A DNA stretch of 10,886 nt, taken from Deltaproteobacteria bacterium. GTDB taxonomy: Bacteria; Desulfobacterota; DSM-4660; Desulfatiglandales; HGW-15. The notes under the pieces are model-generated. The model did no database searches. It saw only the letters and a program-made list of their open reading frames with translations, and had not been told where the DNA came from. The position numbers and the translations under genes were made by a program. How positions within the stretch are numbered: the stretch's first letter is position 1; each line of letters starts with the position of its first letter. The stretch is from positions 1 to 10,886 of the forward strand of contig JAFDIC010000119.1 of the NCBI GenBank assembly GCA_019308525.1, written 5' to 3'. This document shows, one piece after another, positions 1,934-8,685 of the stretch.

Positions 1934-2164
1934 ATGTGCGTTGCAATACCCTCTCGAATCGAAAAGATTGATCGTCATAGGGGCATTGTAGATATCGATG
2001 GTGTGAAGAGAGAAATCAGTCTGCTTCTCCTCGAAGATGTAAGTCCGGGTGATTGGGTCATCATACACGCGGGTTTCGCCATACACAAGATTGATGCTTC
2101 CAAGGCTCTGGAATCCCTGGAGCTATTGCATGAGGCATTCTCCGGCAAAGGCATCAAACCTTAG
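1934..2164 (+). CDS. hypC: [NiFe]-hydrogenase maturation chaperone HypC
   Basis: A small cytoplasmic chaperone (76 aa) that works with HypD to carry iron with its CO2/CO and cyanide ligands and deliver it to the hydrogenase large-subunit precursor. The start MCVAIPSRI matches the family signature MC(L/V)AIP; Cys2 is the essential iron-binding cysteine, exposed after removal of Met1. The rest has the HypC beta-barrel pattern: a valine/isoleucine-rich strand with VDIDGVKREISLLLLEDV (16-33) and then GDWVIIHAGFAI (36-47). Length agrees with the family (about 75-90 aa). The ATG at 1934 is preceded by GGAAAAGGAAACC, a good SD. A longer in-frame form from 1859 would bury Cys2 and is rejected. It is first in the hyp operon and ends with TAG, 15 bp before and in the same frame as hypF. 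Confidence 0.95.
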   Translation: MCVAIPSRIEKIDRHRGIVDIDGVKREISLLLLEDVSPGDWVIIHAGFAIHKIDASKALESLELLHEAFSGKGIKP

Positions 2165-2179
2165 ATCCCCCGAACGAAA

Positions 2180-4492
2180 TTGGAAATCTCTAGTTGCAAT
2201 AATTCAGGCGAGACGGCACGTGAGCATGTTGCACGTGCCGTAAGCGTTGAAGGAATCGTCCAGGGCGTGGGTTTCCGCCCTTTCGTATATCGCCTGGCAA
2301 AGGATTACAAACTGAGGGGTATGGTTGCCAACACCTCTTCCGGGGTTTTGATTCACGTTGAGGGGCCCTTGGAAGCTGTCCGAGAATTCTGTCGCCAACT
2401 CTCGGACAGGAGCCCGCCACTTGCTCGAATCACCAGAATCTCTGCCAAGCCTGCGCAGTTAACGGGCTTTGATCGTTTCACCATTCAAAAGAGCGACCGG
2501 GGGCACAAGAGGTCTGTACTGGTCTCGCCTGACAGCTCCGTGTGTGATGACTGTCTCCGGGAACTATTTGATCCCAATGACCGCCGCTACCTGTATCCCT
2601 TCATAAACTGCACCAACTGTGGTCCCAGGTATACTATTATTTATGATATTCCCTACGATCGCGCCAACACCACAATGAGACCCTTTCGAATGTGCAGCAT
2701 GTGCCAGGCAGAATATGATGACCCGGATGACAGGAGATTCCATGCCCAACCCAATGCCTGCCCCCAATGCGGCCCGCGGGTATCCCTGTATGATACCGAA
2801 AAGAACATCGTTCATGGGCCAGATCCGATTGCAAAGGCCGTTGCCCTGATAAGGCAAGGGTCGATACTGGCAATCAAAGGGCTCGGCGGGTTTCACCTCT
2901 GTGCGGACGCGGAGAACGATGAGGCCGTTGCGAGGCTCAGGGGAAAAAAGAGGCGTAACGATAAACCATTTGCACTCATGTCATACGATGTCGGTCGGAT
3001 CCGCGCCTTTGCCCGCGTGGCTCCAGAGGAGGAGGATCTACTTGAGTCAATTCAGCGGCCCATAGTCATCCTGGAAAAAAAGAATCCCAACTCCATATCA
3101 AAGAAGGTATCACCGGGAAACAGGCATTTTGCCGTGATGCTCCCCTATACCCCTCTCCATTACTTGATTTTGAGAGAGGGTTTCTCGGCCCTTGTCATGA
3201 CCAGCGGAAATATCAGCGATGAGCCCATTGCCCTTGAAAATGAAGAGGCATTTCAAAATCTTGCCAGGTTGGCCGACTATTTCCTCGTCCACAACAGGGC
3301 CATTCACACGAGAAGCGATGATTCTATCCTAAGGCATGCAAACGGAGCCATACGTTTGATCCGTCGATCAAGAGGCTTCGTACCCAGCCCGGTATTACTC
3401 AAGGACAAGGGCCCCCGGGTGCTGGCATGCGGCGGCCAACAAAAGAACACCGTTTGCCTCACCAGGGAAAACCAGGCCTTCTTGAGCCAGCACATCGGGG
3501 AGCTGGAAAACCTTCCAACCTACCGCTTTTTTCAATCCACTATCCAGCATCTGAAAAAGATCCTGGATATCGAACCTGAGATAATCGCCCACGATCTTCA
3601 CCCCGACTATATAAGCGCGCGTTATGCAAAGGAGCAGGAACAGGGGCGGAAGATCGGCATTCAGCACCATCATGCCCATATCGCCAGTTGTATGGCTGAA
3701 AATATGTTGGACGGACCTGTGATCGGGCTTTCTTTTGACGGGACCGGCTACGGAGTGGATGGTCATATCTGGGGTGGCGAGGTGCTTGTTGCGGAGGCAA
3801 CTCATTTCCAAAGAATGGCGCATCTGTCATATGTTCCCATGCCGGGTGGCTCATCAGCAATAAAAGAGCCTTGGAGAATGGCCGTCAGTTACCTGTACGG
3901 GACCTTTGGTGAAGATTTTTGGGAACTCGGGGTGCCCATTCTTGGTGAGATTGAAGAGAAGAAAATCCGAATCATCACCCAGATGATATCCAAAGGTATT
4001 AACTCTCCGGGCACGTCGAGTATCGGGCGGCTTTTCGATGGTACAGCCGCAATACTGGGGCTGAGGTACGCTGCGTCCTTTGAAGGACAGGCCGCCATGG
4101 AGCTGGAATCACTGTCCACTGAAGCAGCCCAGGAAACCTACGATTATGAATGGGTATCTGATGGAGGTTGTTACAGGATCCTGCTTCAACCACTCATCGA
4201 AGGAGTTGTAAAGGATGTCCAGAACCAGGTATCCCCTTCCAGGATCGGCAGCAAATTTCATCAATGGTTGATCTCACTTTTTTCCGACCTGTGCCAAGTA
4301 CTAAGGAAAAATACCGGCGTGAATCGAGTGGCGCTTAGTGGGGGGGTATTCCAGAATATGATCCTACTTGGCGGACTGTCCGGGGCACTTGAAAAAAAAG
4401 GCTTCGAGGTGTACAGCCATCGCCTTGTGCCGGCCAATGACGGGGGTCTTTCCCTGGGCCAGGCCTACGTCGCAAGGGCAACTTTTCGCTGA
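2180..4492 (+). CDS. hypF: Carbamoyltransferase HypF, [NiFe]-hydrogenase cyanide-ligand synthesis
   Basis: HypF turns carbamoyl phosphate and ATP into a carbamoyl adenylate and transfers the carbamoyl group to the C-terminal cysteine of HypE. It is 770 aa, normal for the family. Domains in order: acylphosphatase-like (about 18-105; VQGVGFRPF at 27-35 with catalytic Arg33, NTSSG at 51-55); zinc-finger-like region with four CxxC pairs (122/125, 144/147, 172/175, 194/197); YrdC-like domain (about 210-400; KPFALM, TSGNISDEP); Kae1-like domain (about 410-770; HHHAH at 496-500, FDGTGYG at 519-525, LSGGVFQN at 719-726, PANDGG at 751-756). All key motifs are present. The start is odd: the only canonical start in frame before the acylphosphatase domain is TTG at 2180, without a clear SD, so translation is probably coupled to hypC. 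It overlaps hypD's earliest possible ATG by one base (TGATG). Confidence 0.95.
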   Translation: MEISSCNNSGETAREHVARAVSVEGIVQGVGFRPFVYRLAKDYKLRGMVANTSSGVLIHVEGPLEAVREFCRQLSDRSPPLARITRISAKPAQLTGFDRFTIQKSDRGHKRSVLVSPDSSVCDDCLRELFDPNDRRYLYPFINCTNCGPRYTIIYDIPYDRANTTMRPFRMCSMCQAEYDDPDDRRFHAQPNACPQCGPRVSLYDTEKNIVHGPDPIAKAVALIRQGSILAIKGLGGFHLCADAENDEAVARLRGKKRRNDKPFALMSYDVGRIRAFARVAPEEEDLLESIQRPIVILEKKNPNSISKKVSPGNRHFAVMLPYTPLHYLILREGFSALVMTSGNISDEPIALENEEAFQNLARLADYFLVHNRAIHTRSDDSILRHANGAIRLIRRSRGFVPSPVLLKDKGPRVLACGGQQKNTVCLTRENQAFLSQHIGELENLPTYRFFQSTIQHLKKILDIEPEIIAHDLHPDYISARYAKEQEQGRKIGIQHHHAHIASCMAENMLDGPVIGLSFDGTGYGVDGHIWGGEVLVAEATHFQRMAHLSYVPMPGGSSAIKEPWRMAVSYLYGTFGEDFWELGVPILGEIEEKKIRIITQMISKGINSPGTSSIGRLFDGTAAILGLRYAASFEGQAAMELESLSTEAAQETYDYEWVSDGGCYRILLQPLIEGVVKDVQNQVSPSRIGSKFHQWLISLFSDLCQVLRKNTGVNRVALSGGVFQNMILLGGLSGALEKKGFEVYSHRLVPANDGGLSLGQAYVARATFR

Positions 4493-4542
4493 TGCCTGAT
4501 TTTGTTCAAGACCGAGCAGGAAGCCCCGGGGGAAGAGGTGGC

Positions 4543-5682
4543 ATGGTGAATCCCGCAAAAGACTACCAAGGAAGAGGCGCTTATAGAGATCCCCGGATTT
4601 GCCGGGCGATCCTCGAAGAAATCAAAAAGACAAGCCGTAGAGAAGTCCGATTAATGGAAGTTTGCGGCACCCACACCACGTCTATCTTTAGAAGCGGGAT
4701 TCGATCCATGATCCCTGACAGTATCTCTCTCCTCTCCGGGCCCGGCTGTCCCGTGTGTGTCACCACTCGAAGCGAAATCGACGTCTTTATCCGCCTCTCA
4801 GGCATGGAGGACCTGGTACTGGTAACCTTTGGCGATCTCATGAGGGTCCCAGGCTCAGAGTCCTCTCTTTCGAAGGAAAGGGCAAAGGGTAGAGATATCA
4901 GGATCGTCTTTTCGCCCCTTGACGCACTGGCAATTGCGGAGCAGAACCCCTCAAAGAAGATCGTTTTCCTGGGGATCGGCTTTGAGACAACAGCACCTTC
5001 GGTCGCCGCATCCATGATGTCCGCAAAGAGCATGGGCATTGAGAACTATTTCGTCTTTTCGGCCCACAGGAGGATACCACCCGCCCTGTTTGCCCTGATG
5101 CAGAACAGGGCTGCCAGGGTGGATGGTTTTATTCTCCCCGGGCACGTGTCTGTGATTATCGGGCAGAGTGCATATGTCTCTTTCTTTGAAGGATTCAAAA
5201 CACCGTGCGTGATTGCGGGGTTTGAGCCAGCTGACATTCTTCTGGCTATCCTGACGCTTGCCGAACAGCTTGAGTCAAACCATCCCGCACTGGTAAATAT
5301 TTACTCAAGGGCGGTCTCCTTCCATGGGAACCAAAAGGCAAAGGGCGTTATGGAGGAGGTCTTCGAGCCCCTTGATGTCAGGTGGCGCGGTCTTGGAAAA
5401 ATCCCGGAAAGCGGGCTGAAAATAAGAGAAAGTTATGCATCCTTTGATGCTGAGAGGGCCTTTGACATAACCCTGCCTGACTCTGAGGAGCGGGAAACAT
5501 GCGCCTGCGGAGATATACTCGCAGGCATAAAAGCTCCGCCGGAGTGCCCCCTTTTCAAGAAACCTTGCACTCCCTTTGATCCCCTTGGGCCATGCATGGT
5601 ATCAAGTGAAGGGGCCTGCTCGGTCTATTATAGGTATCACCAGGATATGAGAAATCTCCCCTCAGGGGGAGGGGCTGCATAG
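4543..5682 (+). CDS. hypD: [NiFe]-hydrogenase maturation iron-sulfur protein HypD
   Basis: HypD is the [4Fe-4S] scaffold that, with HypC, holds the iron while the Fe(CN)2CO group is assembled. From ATG 4543 it is 379 aa. Visible motifs: MEVCGTHT (38-45) with the essential Cys41, GPGCPVC (66-72), GIGFETTAP (144-152), and a C-terminal cysteine-rich part: CACGDILAG from 320, CPLF at 335, and Cys342, Cys351 and Cys359, which includes the 4Fe-4S ligands. I chose 4543 because GGAAGAGGTGGC lies just before it and the N terminus then fits the family. The alternative ATG at 4492 overlaps the hypF stop (TGATG) and would add 17 residues (396 aa) that look unlike HypD but would suit translational coupling. 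It ends 55 bp before hypE. Confidence 0.94.
   Translation: MVNPAKDYQGRGAYRDPRICRAILEEIKKTSRREVRLMEVCGTHTTSIFRSGIRSMIPDSISLLSGPGCPVCVTTRSEIDVFIRLSGMEDLVLVTFGDLMRVPGSESSLSKERAKGRDIRIVFSPLDALAIAEQNPSKKIVFLGIGFETTAPSVAASMMSAKSMGIENYFVFSAHRRIPPALFALMQNRAARVDGFILPGHVSVIIGQSAYVSFFEGFKTPCVIAGFEPADILLAILTLAEQLESNHPALVNIYSRAVSFHGNQKAKGVMEEVFEPLDVRWRGLGKIPESGLKIRESYASFDAERAFDITLPDSEERETCACGDILAGIKAPPECPLFKKPCTPFDPLGPCMVSSEGACSVYYRYHQDMRNLPSGGGAA
5656..5671 (+). other. GC-rich hairpin at the 3' end of hypD
   Basis: CTCCCC (5656-5661) pairs perfectly with GGGGAG (5666-5671) around a four-base loop, inside the last codons of hypD. No T-run follows directly. It could slow decay or partly separate hypD from hypE in the message, or merely be the result of a Pro/Ser/Gly codon run. 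Confidence 0.3.
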
Positions 5683-5686
5683 TGCC

Positions 5687-5710
5687 GCCTTTTAAATCGC
5701 TGCCTTTTAA
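5687..5710. repeat. 9-bp direct repeat in the hypD-hypE gap
   Basis: GCCTTTTAA occurs at 5687-5695 and again at 5702-5710, start-to-start distance 15 bp, in the 55-bp spacer before hypE. The second copy lies inside CTGC-N7-GCAG, a weak 4-bp hairpin. It may be a small local duplication; no function is assigned. Confidence 0.4.
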
Positions 5711-5737
5711 GCAGTTATTCTCCAAGGGGCAAAATCA

Positions 5738-6748
5738 ATGGGTTTTGAACACATTCTGATGGATCATGGAAGTGGAGGGGAGCTTTCGCACAGGCTTGTC
5801 AAGGAGACCATCCTCCCCCTGTTTGACAACCCTATCCTCTCCGAGCTTGGTGATGGTGCTGTTCTTGACATGGAAGGCACACGCCTTGCCTTTTCCACGG
5901 ACACGTTCGTCGTAGATCCAATCTTTTTCCCGGGCGGGAGTATCGGATCCCTTGCCGTCAACGGGACAGTAAACGATCTTGCCATGTGCGGCGCCACACC
6001 CCTTTACCTCAGTGTCGGACTTATTCTCGAAGAGGGGTTCCCCGTGAAGGACCTGGAAAGGGTCCTCAGCCATATGCGAGCTGCCGCGAAGGAAGCCGCC
6101 GTAGAAGTGGTAACAGGGGACACAAAGGTCGTCGGGAAGGGCGCTGGAGACAAGGTTTTCATCAACACGGCAGGTATCGGCCTGGTACCGCAAGGCTTGG
6201 ATCTTTCCGGTCGTGACATAGAGATTGGAGACAAGATCATTGTAAGCGGATATATCGGTGATCATGGCGTAACGATCCTGACCCAAAGAGAGGGCCTGGG
6301 CTTCGATGCCCCCATCAAAAGCGATACTGCCCCCTTGAATCATCTTGTCAGAAAGCTTCTTTCAACCGGCCGTGGCATCCGAGTACTGAGGGACCCGACC
6401 CGGGGTGGTGTTGGAACCGTACTGAACGAAATCGCTCAAAGATTCCATGTGGGAATCATGATCCTCGAAGAGGACATTCCCGTAAGGAACGAAGTTGCGG
6501 CCGTCTGTGATCTCCTGGGCCTGGACCCTCTGTACCTGCCCAATGAAGGAAAGTTCATTGCACTGGTAAGTGCCCGGCAAGCAGACTCGATCCTTCAAAC
6601 CATGAAAAGTGACCCACTGGGCAGGGACGCTGCTATGATCGGAGAAATAGCTGAAGACTGCCCAGGTCAAGTCTTTATGAAAACCCGGATCGGCGGCACG
6701 AGGATCATCGAAATGTTGACCGGGGAGCAGTACCCGAGGATCTGCTAA
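5738..6748 (+). CDS. hypE: Hydrogenase maturation protein HypE, carbamoyl dehydratase
   Basis: HypE accepts the carbamoyl group from HypF on its C-terminal cysteine and dehydrates it with ATP to a thiocyanate, the source of the cyanide ligands passed to HypC-HypD iron. It is 336 aa, usual length. Visible: MDHGSGG (8-14), STDTFVVDP (53-61), GTVNDLAMCGA (76-86), VVTGDTKVV (124-132), RDPTRGG (218-224), NEGK (269-272), and the diagnostic C-terminal PRIC ending in Cys336. The fold is the AIRS/PurM-like ATP-binding family, related to SelD and ThiL, but the PRIC tail and the hyp context exclude those. ATG 5738 has AAGGGG upstream at normal spacing. It is the last hyp gene here; hypA and hypB are not in the window. 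A GNAT gene follows on the same strand after 72 bp. Confidence 0.96.
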   Translation: MGFEHILMDHGSGGELSHRLVKETILPLFDNPILSELGDGAVLDMEGTRLAFSTDTFVVDPIFFPGGSIGSLAVNGTVNDLAMCGATPLYLSVGLILEEGFPVKDLERVLSHMRAAAKEAAVEVVTGDTKVVGKGAGDKVFINTAGIGLVPQGLDLSGRDIEIGDKIIVSGYIGDHGVTILTQREGLGFDAPIKSDTAPLNHLVRKLLSTGRGIRVLRDPTRGGVGTVLNEIAQRFHVGIMILEEDIPVRNEVAAVCDLLGLDPLYLPNEGKFIALVSARQADSILQTMKSDPLGRDAAMIGEIAEDCPGQVFMKTRIGGTRIIEMLTGEQYPRIC

Positions 6749-7237: not shown

Positions 7238-7275
7238 ATAAATACTTGGTCCCCAATACCTGGCCCGGGGTCCCA

Positions 7276-7305
7276 GCCAACCTGTTACGGCACAACCAGG
7301 TTGGC
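7276..7305. terminator. Perfect 9-bp hairpin between convergent genes, possible bidirectional terminator
   Basis: GCCAACCTG (7276-7284) and CAGGTTGGC (7297-7305) are exact reverse complements around a 12-base loop, in the 88-bp gap where the plus-strand GNAT gene and the minus-strand DsbA-fold gene converge. Neither arm is followed by a T-run, so it is not a classical intrinsic terminator. Its symmetry and position suggest a transcript-end hairpin working on both strands. Confidence 0.45.
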
Positions 7306-7325
7306 AGAGGTTTGCCCGGAGTGCG

Positions 7326-7979
7326 CTATGAGCCCTTTTGAAATCTTATCCTTGGGCGAGGGCCGAATACCGGCCCGGTGTCCCGCCTCCGCTTCAGCTC
7401 GAAAAACCCAGGCGTGCCGCCCAGGGTGATGAGGGCCTCCCACACCGCTACGGCTTTCTTTCCCCTTGGCGCCGGACTCATGACCGGGCCGAAAAACCCC
7501 TCTCCTTTTCCGCCCTCCAGCACAATGAGCGGCACTCCCACGTCCTTTCCAACCTTGTCCATGGCCTGGGCCATGTCCCCTTCAATCTCCAAATCGAGGG
7601 ACCTGTCCTTGAGAGCCTTTGCCAGTTCGGCGGGGTACTTGCAGGTCCTTAATATTTCTTCCATTACTGAAAGTTCGTCCATGTCCCCGTGGTCATGGTG
7701 GTAAAGGGTACCCATCACCGTGTAAAGCCTTTCCACCCCGGCGTTTCCAAATTCCCGGCGCACTGCTGCGGCAACACGCAACGCCCTTAGGCCGATCTCC
7801 TGAACTATTTTGAAGTCCTTCCTGATCCTGCGGCCCTTGTTGACAATTCTAAGGCTGAAAAACTTCCATCTCACTGAAATATCCTTTTGCCGGCCCACGT
7901 CTGCCATCCACCTGGATGTAATCCAACACCAGGGTCAAATGGGATCAAAGTAGAAATCAATCCTGTCTCTCCTTTTCAA
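7326..7979 (-). CDS. DsbA-fold thiol oxidoreductase (Rv2466c/mycothiol-dependent nitroreductase-like), probable selenoprotein read through an in-frame TGA
   Basis: A 217-aa thioredoxin-superfamily protein with a DsbA-like helical insertion. Reading from TTG 7979 the N terminus is KRRDRIDFYFDPI, then TGA (7937-7935) as residue 15, then PWCWITSRW. The family has Cys-Pro-Trp-(Cys/Ala)-Trp-Ile-Thr-Ser-Arg-Trp here, so the TGA replaces exactly the catalytic cysteine: Sec15-Pro-Trp-Cys18. Downstream, FSLRIVNKG, LYTVMGTLYHH, GKDVGVPLIVLEG, FFGPVMSPAPRG and PGFFELKRRR are as in actinobacterial Rv2466c-type proteins (about 207 aa). Homology continues unbroken across the TGA. TTG 7979 has GGGAGG six bases upstream, so the upstream part is translated. 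The first downstream ATG (7907, residue 25) would give 193 aa without an active site. It ends with TAG. Mycothiol is an actinobacterial thiol, so the partner here must differ. A decayed gene with a nonsense mutation is the alternative, but less likely. Confidence 0.85.
7905..7918 (-). promoter_or_regulatory. Putative bacterial SECIS hairpin downstream of the TGA codon
   Basis: On the minus strand CATCC-AGGT-GGATG forms a perfect 5-bp stem with a four-base loop. The loop begins 21 nt after the TGA (7935-7937) and has G as its second base. Known bacterial SECIS rules (loop about 16-37 nt from UGA, G among the first two loop bases, stem of at least 4 bp) are met, and the loop AGGU resembles the AGGUCU loop of E. 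coli fdhF. Unpaired U's lie on the 5' side below the stem. A competing fold pairs CCTGG (7933-7929) with CCAGG (7915-7911). Confidence 0.6.
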
Positions 7980-8050
7980 GACATAACCTCCCGTCCATTT
8001 GTTGAGAGCATTCTCAATATCAGAGATCAGAGCAAAACAACACTGCTGTC

Positions 8051-8449
8051 TCACCAGCGAACCCTCAAGCCGTAATCCCTGTAGGACCTAAATTCCTTGT
8101 CCTTGGAAATGAGGGTCATTCTGTTTCCGATTCCTTGCCATATCATCATGCGGTCGAAAGGATCCTTGTGAGCAAGCCTGGGAAGCCTGTGAAAACTTGC
8201 AGCCTCCTCAGCTCTCAAGGGGATGATATCCAGGGGAACCTCCTGGGCCGCACCAGGGAGATCCGCAGGACTAACATTGTGAAGTTCAAGCTTTCCGAGT
8301 GAGTATTTGAGGGAGATCTCCCAAAATGTCACAATACTCACCGCAACCCTATTCTTAGGATCTCGTATCTCTTTTCGAGCCCATGAGCTTAGCTTTTCGG
8401 GTTCAAATAGAACCCAGAGGAAAGTATGGGTATCCAGCAGGTAGTTCAT
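8051..8449 (-). CDS. PIN-domain toxin ribonuclease, VapC-like
   Basis: 132 aa, the usual size of a PIN-domain toxin of a type II toxin-antitoxin system; such toxins cut RNA using Mg2+ held by acidic residues. Visible acidic positions: Asp6 in LLDTHTFLW, Glu44 in SIVTFWEISLKYSLGKL, Asp96 and Asp99 in HKDPFDRMMIWQ, and Asp117 in ISKDKEF, followed by a typical YGL ending. The DTHxxLW start places it in the COG3744-like branch that pairs with Phd-type antitoxins. Its ATG overlaps the antitoxin stop by four bases (ATGA), the standard arrangement, so translation is coupled. All catalytic residues are intact, so it is probably functional. The RNA target is unknown. Its stop lies 71 bp before the start of the selenoprotein gene on the same strand. 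Confidence 0.9.
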   Translation of the reverse strand: MNYLLDTHTFLWVLFEPEKLSSWARKEIRDPKNRVAVSIVTFWEISLKYSLGKLELHNVSPADLPGAAQEVPLDIIPLRAEEAASFHRLPRLAHKDPFDRMMIWQGIGNRMTLISKDKEFRSYRDYGLRVRW

Positions 8450-8685
8450 TGATTGATCAACTCTTCGTCAGTCATCTTGAAATTCCTGTGAATGACACAT
8501 GAGCCTCGATCTTTCAGCAAACCCATTCTTCTCTCCTCTTCGAAGGAGTAGTCTTCATATGGCACCAATACCGCTATTCTTTGGCGTTTCTTACCATAGC
8601 TTATGACTATCCTTTCACCCCGTTTGACCCGCTCCAGGACTTCAGAAAACCGCGATTTCAGCTCACCTACGCCGATACTTTCCAT
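8446..8685 (-). CDS. Phd/YefM-family antitoxin
   Basis: 79 aa. The N-terminal IGVGELKSRFSEVLERVKRG (4-23), then ERIVISYGKKRQRIAVLVPYEDY (24-46), is the Phd/YefM DNA-binding fold, in which the dimer binds its own promoter; the charged C-terminal tail (about 47-79, ending MTDEELINQ) would wrap the PIN toxin and block its active site. ATG 8685 has AGGAG eight bases upstream. It overlaps the downstream PIN gene by four bases, which fixes their relation as a toxin-antitoxin pair. Autorepression of the operon, with the toxin as co-repressor, is expected from the family. The sequence is typical and unbroken. Confidence 0.88.
   Translation of the reverse strand: MESIGVGELKSRFSEVLERVKRGERIVISYGKKRQRIAVLVPYEDYSFEEERRMGLLKDRGSCVIHRNFKMTDEELINQ

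Follow-up and report, generated by a model that had tools for sequence, protein, structure and literature searches.

Predicted selenocysteine at the active site of Rv2466c-like DsbA-fold oxidoreductases in deltaproteobacterial genomes

Does an in-frame TGA near the start of an oxidoreductase gene in a deltaproteobacterium end translation, or does it encode selenocysteine (Sec)? The gene lies on a stretch of 10,886 nucleotides (contig JAFDIC010000119.1), referred to here as the window. The original prediction described one long frame interrupted by a single TGA, opened by a TTG start behind GGGAGG, and carrying a Sec-Pro-Trp-Cys site on the column of the nucleophilic cysteine in Rv2466c-like proteins, while the conventional ATG reading was said to give a protein without a redox centre. 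All four points held when the frame was retranslated and compared with its homologs (Table 1). With TGA read as Sec (U), positions 7979 to 7326 of the minus strand encode 217 residues, U15 is the sole internal TGA, and the frame ends at TAG. TGA serves as an ordinary stop elsewhere in the window, terminating hypF and both genes of a toxin-antitoxin pair.

Table 1. Features of the Rv2466c-like locus in the window
Feature	Positions	Strand	Remarks
Predicted selenoprotein gene, Rv2466c-like DsbA-fold oxidoreductase	7326..7979	-	TTG start, 217 codons, TAG stop
In-frame TGA, U15 = predicted selenocysteine	7935..7937	-	At the nucleophilic Cys position of CPWC
Resolving Cys18 codon of UPWC	7926..7928	-	Cys in 8/8 TGA genes
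GGGAGG ribosome-binding site	7987..7992	-	7 nt upstream of TTG
Shortened frame, standard code	7326..7907	-	ATG at 7907, 193 aa, without the redox centre
Predicted upper bacterial SECIS hairpin, CAUCC-AGGU-GGAUG	7905..7918	-	Loop 21 nt past UGA
Predicted extended SECIS stem, lower part	7888..7931	-	Weaker support
Inverted repeat between the selenoprotein gene and the convergent GNAT gene	7273..7310		Sub-threshold Rfam match and sequence; possibly a shared terminator (a guess)

Active site and family of the read-through protein

Reading through the TGA raised the score against the Rv2466c-like family PF22234 from 136 bits for the shortened protein to 168.5 bits (Pfam cut-off 27), and a match to PF01323 (DSBA) appeared only on readthrough (37.6 bits, cut-off 25.6). 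The active-site motif is UPWC, as compared to CPWC in the family. A search with the read-through protein returned 2195 homologs at E ≤0.001. Among the best 120 of these 2195, the TGA column was occupied by Cys in all 117 that span the site (115 CPWC, one CPWF, and one CAWC), in keeping with the prediction that Cys would align to the TGA; the other three, which include the window's own shortened form, start downstream of it. Cys at this column in every spanning homol­og listed places the TGA there beyond chance. No relatives were found in a scan of a viral collection.

The closest solved structures by sequence were the Rv2466c entries and a homolog from Mycobacterium leprae, and the same proteins made up the top ten PDB fold matches to an AlphaFold model computed with Sec as Cys (pLDDT 82.4; TMq 0.71–0.78 for Rv2466c). 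The predicted protein shares with Rv2466c (Mrx2, the mycothiol-dependent nitroreductase of PF22234) its fold, its length, and the C/U-P-W-C motif, at 38–39% identity in structural alignment; it differs in that Sec replaces the nucleophilic Cys. DR2335 and FrnE of Deinococcus radiodurans adopt the same superfamily fold with lower similarity (TMq 0.53–0.71, 17–21% identity).

Recurrence of the TGA and the extent of the coding frame

A genome scan identified five loci. Two of these carry TGA at the same codon, namely L001 in Deltaproteobacteria bacterium Meg22_1214_Bin_272 (genome G001), an organism name placed under Myxococcota by NCBI ranks, and L002 in Desulfobacterales bacterium bin60 (G002; CP070694). 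The remaining three (L003–L005) come from actinobacteria and are distantly related; their motif is CPWA, which keeps Cys at the TGA column but has Ala where the second Cys would be, and they stand outside the gene count given below. Six-frame searches found matches in 16 of 389 genomes from the class of G002, ten of them strong, and in 2 of 85 genomes from the class of G001. Searching the order of G002 gave matches in 11 of 389 genomes, nearly the same ones as for the class with G394 added, the order sample being almost identical, by genome handles, to the class sample. Six genomes with weak matches (G218, G263, G285, G291, G292, and G374; best E 1e-7 to 8e-4) were kept out of the active-site count. 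In the 14 strongly matching genes that were read, window included, the codon is TGA in eight (window, G001, G002, G351, G343, G386, G269, and G394) and TGC or TGT in six (G272, G146, G079, G201, G369, and G478). The gene is uncommon, and both Sec and Cys forms are present in related genomes; the further TGA homologs that had been called for thus exist in seven other genomes, at the same codon.

Recurrence of the TGA bears on the reading of the window gene as a pseudogene or sequencing error, in which a nonsense change would have struck a former Cys gene. The standard code does leave only the shortened frame open, and some relatives are damaged: L015 has no recognisable N-terminal part, the TGA gene L018 (G269) is broken where its sequence gives way to N, and the Cys copy L019 (G369) is affected as well. 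Set against this, the same TGA recurs in eight genes of different genomes, the clade of TGA genes is rich in shortened annotations, the relatives carry Sec machinery (both described below), and dN is well under dS between the window gene and L001 (0.144 and 0.856). We regard this explanation as extremely improbable. Two further observations were made on the damaged copies. In G269, the C-terminal part is matched ~98 kb away, on the opposite strand; L019 has lost most of its middle part and is still in frame.

A second alternative holds that only the shortened protein is made, from ATG 7907 by way of AGGTGG as an internal ribosome site, with upstream translation stopping at the UGA. AGGTGG does stand immediately before the ATG, and none of the TGA genes departs from it; its AGG, however, is just three bases ahead of the ATG, and the product would be missing both redox residues along with the first strand. 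Across the eight TGA genes, the codons from the TGA to the ATG show only four variable columns, all third positions and all synonymous, and the peptide after the TGA is PWCWITSRWM in every one. Solely synonymous variation here argues that the stretch is translated in this frame. Upstream starts are also in place, with ribosome-binding-like sequences in the window (TTG with GGGAGG) and L001 (GTG with GGAGG), and five other TGA genes start with ATG. Exclusive production of the shortened protein is therefore very unlikely, and the window gene is, with high confidence from sequence comparison, a selenoprotein gene of the Rv2466c-like DsbA-fold family.

Automatic annotation had been expected to shorten such genes, and an exact instance was found in P0130 (hypothetical protein JSV83_02480), whose 187 aa are identical to the frame that follows the TGA in L002. 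A profile built from seven shortened TGA genes gave 957 matches. Among the best 120 of these 957, 115 are proteins of 184–194 aa with a Met start just past the site, and five are full-length Cys forms. The TGA was seen in the DNA for P0130; we infer that the other shortened proteins also follow a TGA. Where these matches carry a name, it is mostly "hypothetical protein" or "2-hydroxychromene-2-carboxylate isomerase"; one of them, P0211, goes by "Mycothiol-dependent nitroreductase Rv2466c". A tree was computed from 114 rows with the active-site columns removed (7 TGA, 63 Cys, 41 shortened, and 3 outgroup), sampling 58 of the 118 full-length rows P0004–P0121 (every second row, with P0110 removed because of its motif) and 41 of 117 shortened rows; L018 and L019 were excluded as damaged from both the tree and the codon-conservation count. 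One clade (99/97, starred) united the 7 TGA rows, all 41 shortened rows, and 4 Cys rows (P0004, P0022, P0066, and P0082), with the outgroup and the remaining 59 Cys rows falling outside it. This topology fits a single origin of the Sec form with a few returns to Cys.

The surroundings of the gene (window, L001, and L002) suggested no pathway. The window has groEL, an epimerase, and the GNAT gene in common with L001 (94, 81, and 82% identical), while the frames near L002, named from their translations, resemble a peptide-transporter ATPase, a phosphomutase, and a pyruvate kinase. A pyruvate-kinase-like frame, again named from translation, follows within ~2.2 kb of the selenoprotein gene in both L001 (6913–8334) and L002 (12702–14132), in settings that differ. 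In the window, a PIN-domain and Phd/YefM toxin-antitoxin pair (8051–8685, minus strand) sits between the selenoprotein gene and the epimerase; the corresponding interval of L001 has no PIN-like frame among the listed frames of at least 90 aa. The hydrogenase maturation genes hypC, hypF, hypD, and a HypE-like (AIR synthase) gene follow one another at 1934–6748 on the plus strand of the window. The inverted repeat beside the GNAT gene (Table 1) was not listed by a terminator scan.

Selenocysteine machinery and a candidate SECIS

The presence of selA, selB, selC, and selD had been proposed as a check on the Sec reading, and the genomes of relatives contain all four with one exception. In a set of 11 relatives (six TGA and five Cys), selB and selA were over cut-off in 11/11, as compared to 2/14 and 1/14 control genomes, respectively. 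A BLAST search with the G001 gene located tRNA-Sec (selC) in ten of the 11, all ten confirmed by ARAGORN. The exception is G002, a TGA genome, in which no tRNA-Sec was detected by BLAST, by Rfam, or by ARAGORN on the stretches scanned, the best Rfam match being a tRNA-Ser according to ARAGORN; a gap or masked stretch is a possible cause. The same genome (L002, L009, L028, and L030) has selA, selB, and a TGA-bearing selD. A wider set of 13 relatives, adding G394 and G478, had selD over cut-off in all 13, and the best selD match in each (L048–L060) contains a single TGA, which falls within G-TGA-A-(A/S)-K at codon 9–11 of the matched stretch. Sec at UxxK is known for selD (PMC13188914 Table 1), and selD appears to be itself a selenoprotein in 13/13. 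With TGA at this known Sec site, all 13 genomes look like Sec users, whichever form of the oxidoreductase they have. Cys-form genomes have the machinery to the same extent, and its presence alone therefore does not distinguish the TGA genes.

These data also bear on near-cognate readthrough, by which the UGA would be decoded as Trp or Cys rather than Sec. Plain readthrough would likewise yield 217 aa, but Cys occupies the column in each of the 117 spanning homologs among the matches listed, the relatives have Sec genes with a TGA at the early motif of their selD, and TGA terminates hypF and both toxin-antitoxin genes in the window. Near-cognate decoding is accordingly a most improbable account, and insertion of Sec is retained as the preferred one. 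By the proposed mechanism, a hairpin immediately downstream would direct SelB with Sec-tRNA to insert selenocysteine at the UGA, as supported by conservation and by the machinery genes of the relatives.

Bacterial SECIS elements consist of a hairpin downstream of the UGA with a G in the apical loop. Within the loop of a SECIS-like hairpin, a Ser-Arg codon pair is TCC-AGG in 8/8 TGA genes, and AGG occurs at this pair in 0/6 Cys genes. The predicted hairpin CAUCC-AGGU-GGAUG can form in seven of the eight TGA genes, with one pair broken in L045. In the seven TGA genes other than L018, 5 of 91 invariant degenerate residues are encoded by a single codon, and two of the five are the adjacent Ser-Arg pair. 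For a subset of five TGA genes the count is 17 of 110 residues, Ser-Arg pair included; for five Cys genes it is 16 of 105, and the pair is not among them. AGG is also the Arg codon used most often across seven other window genes (75/181). Folding statistics were null: hairpin covariation did not exceed that of shuffles (188/500 as high), and the single-sequence fold was no better than shuffles (z 0.49; 133/200 at least as good). A loose hairpin rule was satisfied by 6598 of 20000 synonymous recodings of the window gene (~1/3) and by 3/6 Cys genes, and was missed by L045. The argument for a putative SECIS is one of codon conservation across genes, not of fold. Rfam gave no match at the TGA site, and its two sub-threshold matches, both at other places in the window, are taken as chance.

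Likely chemistry, thiol partner, and relation to known selenoproteins

Rv2466c uses Cys19 as its nucleophile and Cys22 as the resolving residue, and is reset by mycothiol (PMC8280269 and PMC11841060). By analogy to Rv2466c and its kin, a reductase cycle is moderately probable for the predicted selenoprotein. Sec15 would attack an oxidised substrate in the cytosol, the location being one that we infer, and this substrate could be a disulfide, either within a protein or mixed with a small thiol, or else an electrophile, for instance a nitro compound. The resulting Se-S bond would be resolved by Cys18, and the enzyme would be reset by a small thiol other than mycothiol or by a dithiol protein.

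The marker genes of three low-molecular-weight thiols were not over cut-off in any of 13 relatives. For the mycothiol ligase MshC (0/13), a point of difference from the Rv2466c system, sub-cut-off matches of up to 296 bits occur in 13/13 and are presumably cysteinyl-tRNA synthetases. For the proteobacterial glutathione synthase GshB (0/13), sub-cut-off matches occur in 12/13, up to 158 bits (G386), and other glutathione-type ligases may be present. The bacillithiol marker BshC was likewise over cut-off in 0/13. The reductant is thus probably something other than mycothiol, glutathione, or bacillithiol, such as thioredoxin. A thiol partner different from that of Rv2466c, as originally predicted from the presence of Sec outside actinobacteria, agrees with the MshC result; the mycothiol marker was not over cut-off in the Cys-form genomes either, so its lack is not a consequence of Sec.

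Whether this Sec form is already catalogued had been left open, and the answer has two parts. DsbA-like UxxC selenoproteins are a known class, appearing in reports on Sargasso Sea data (PMC1088965) and the Global Ocean Sampling (PMC2398784), in a 119-family inventory (PMC13188914), and in a 2022 review (PMC9312934); a DsbA-like selenoprotein is also reported from Asgard archaea (PMC11227280). The window protein has both the DSBA domain and the UxxC motif that define DsbA-like selenoprotein form 1 (PF01323; COG2761), which likewise has Sec at the first motif position (entries in PMC1088965 and PMC13188914). In the portions of these sources compared, form 1 is catalogued as DSBA/COG2761 and Rv2466c-like or PF22234 is not named; the Rv2466c-like Sec subtype may overlap the published representative NIP15863.1. 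Neither "nitroreductase" nor "mycothiol" occurs in the main texts of PMC13188914, PMC9312934, and PMC2398784, "nitroreductase" is absent from that of PMC1088965, and "dsba" from that of the deltaproteobacterial survey PMC8318568. Literature searches found no paper combining Rv2466c with selenocysteine, and no selenoprotein under the names "dithiol-disulfide isomerase" or "hydroxychromene". Mycothiol-dependent nitroreductase and selenocysteine came up together in a single review, on antimicrobials acting through oxidative stress, and selenoproteins with DsbA and FrnE in a single paper, on an animal database.

Taken as a whole, there is about an even chance that these genes form a so far unnamed Sec-type Rv2466c/Mrx2-like subfamily of Desulfobacterales-like bacteria, with an unknown or thioredoxin-type reductant, one origin, and a few returns to Cys. 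The locus adds a well-supported selenoprotein type that is uncommon and commonly shortened. The shortened entries suggest that many database copies begin just past the redox centre, leaving the enzyme activity invisible to annotation. With Sec and Cys forms available as close sister genes, the contribution of selenium to an Rv2466c-type reductase, and the thiol background in which it is made, could be studied on a natural pair.
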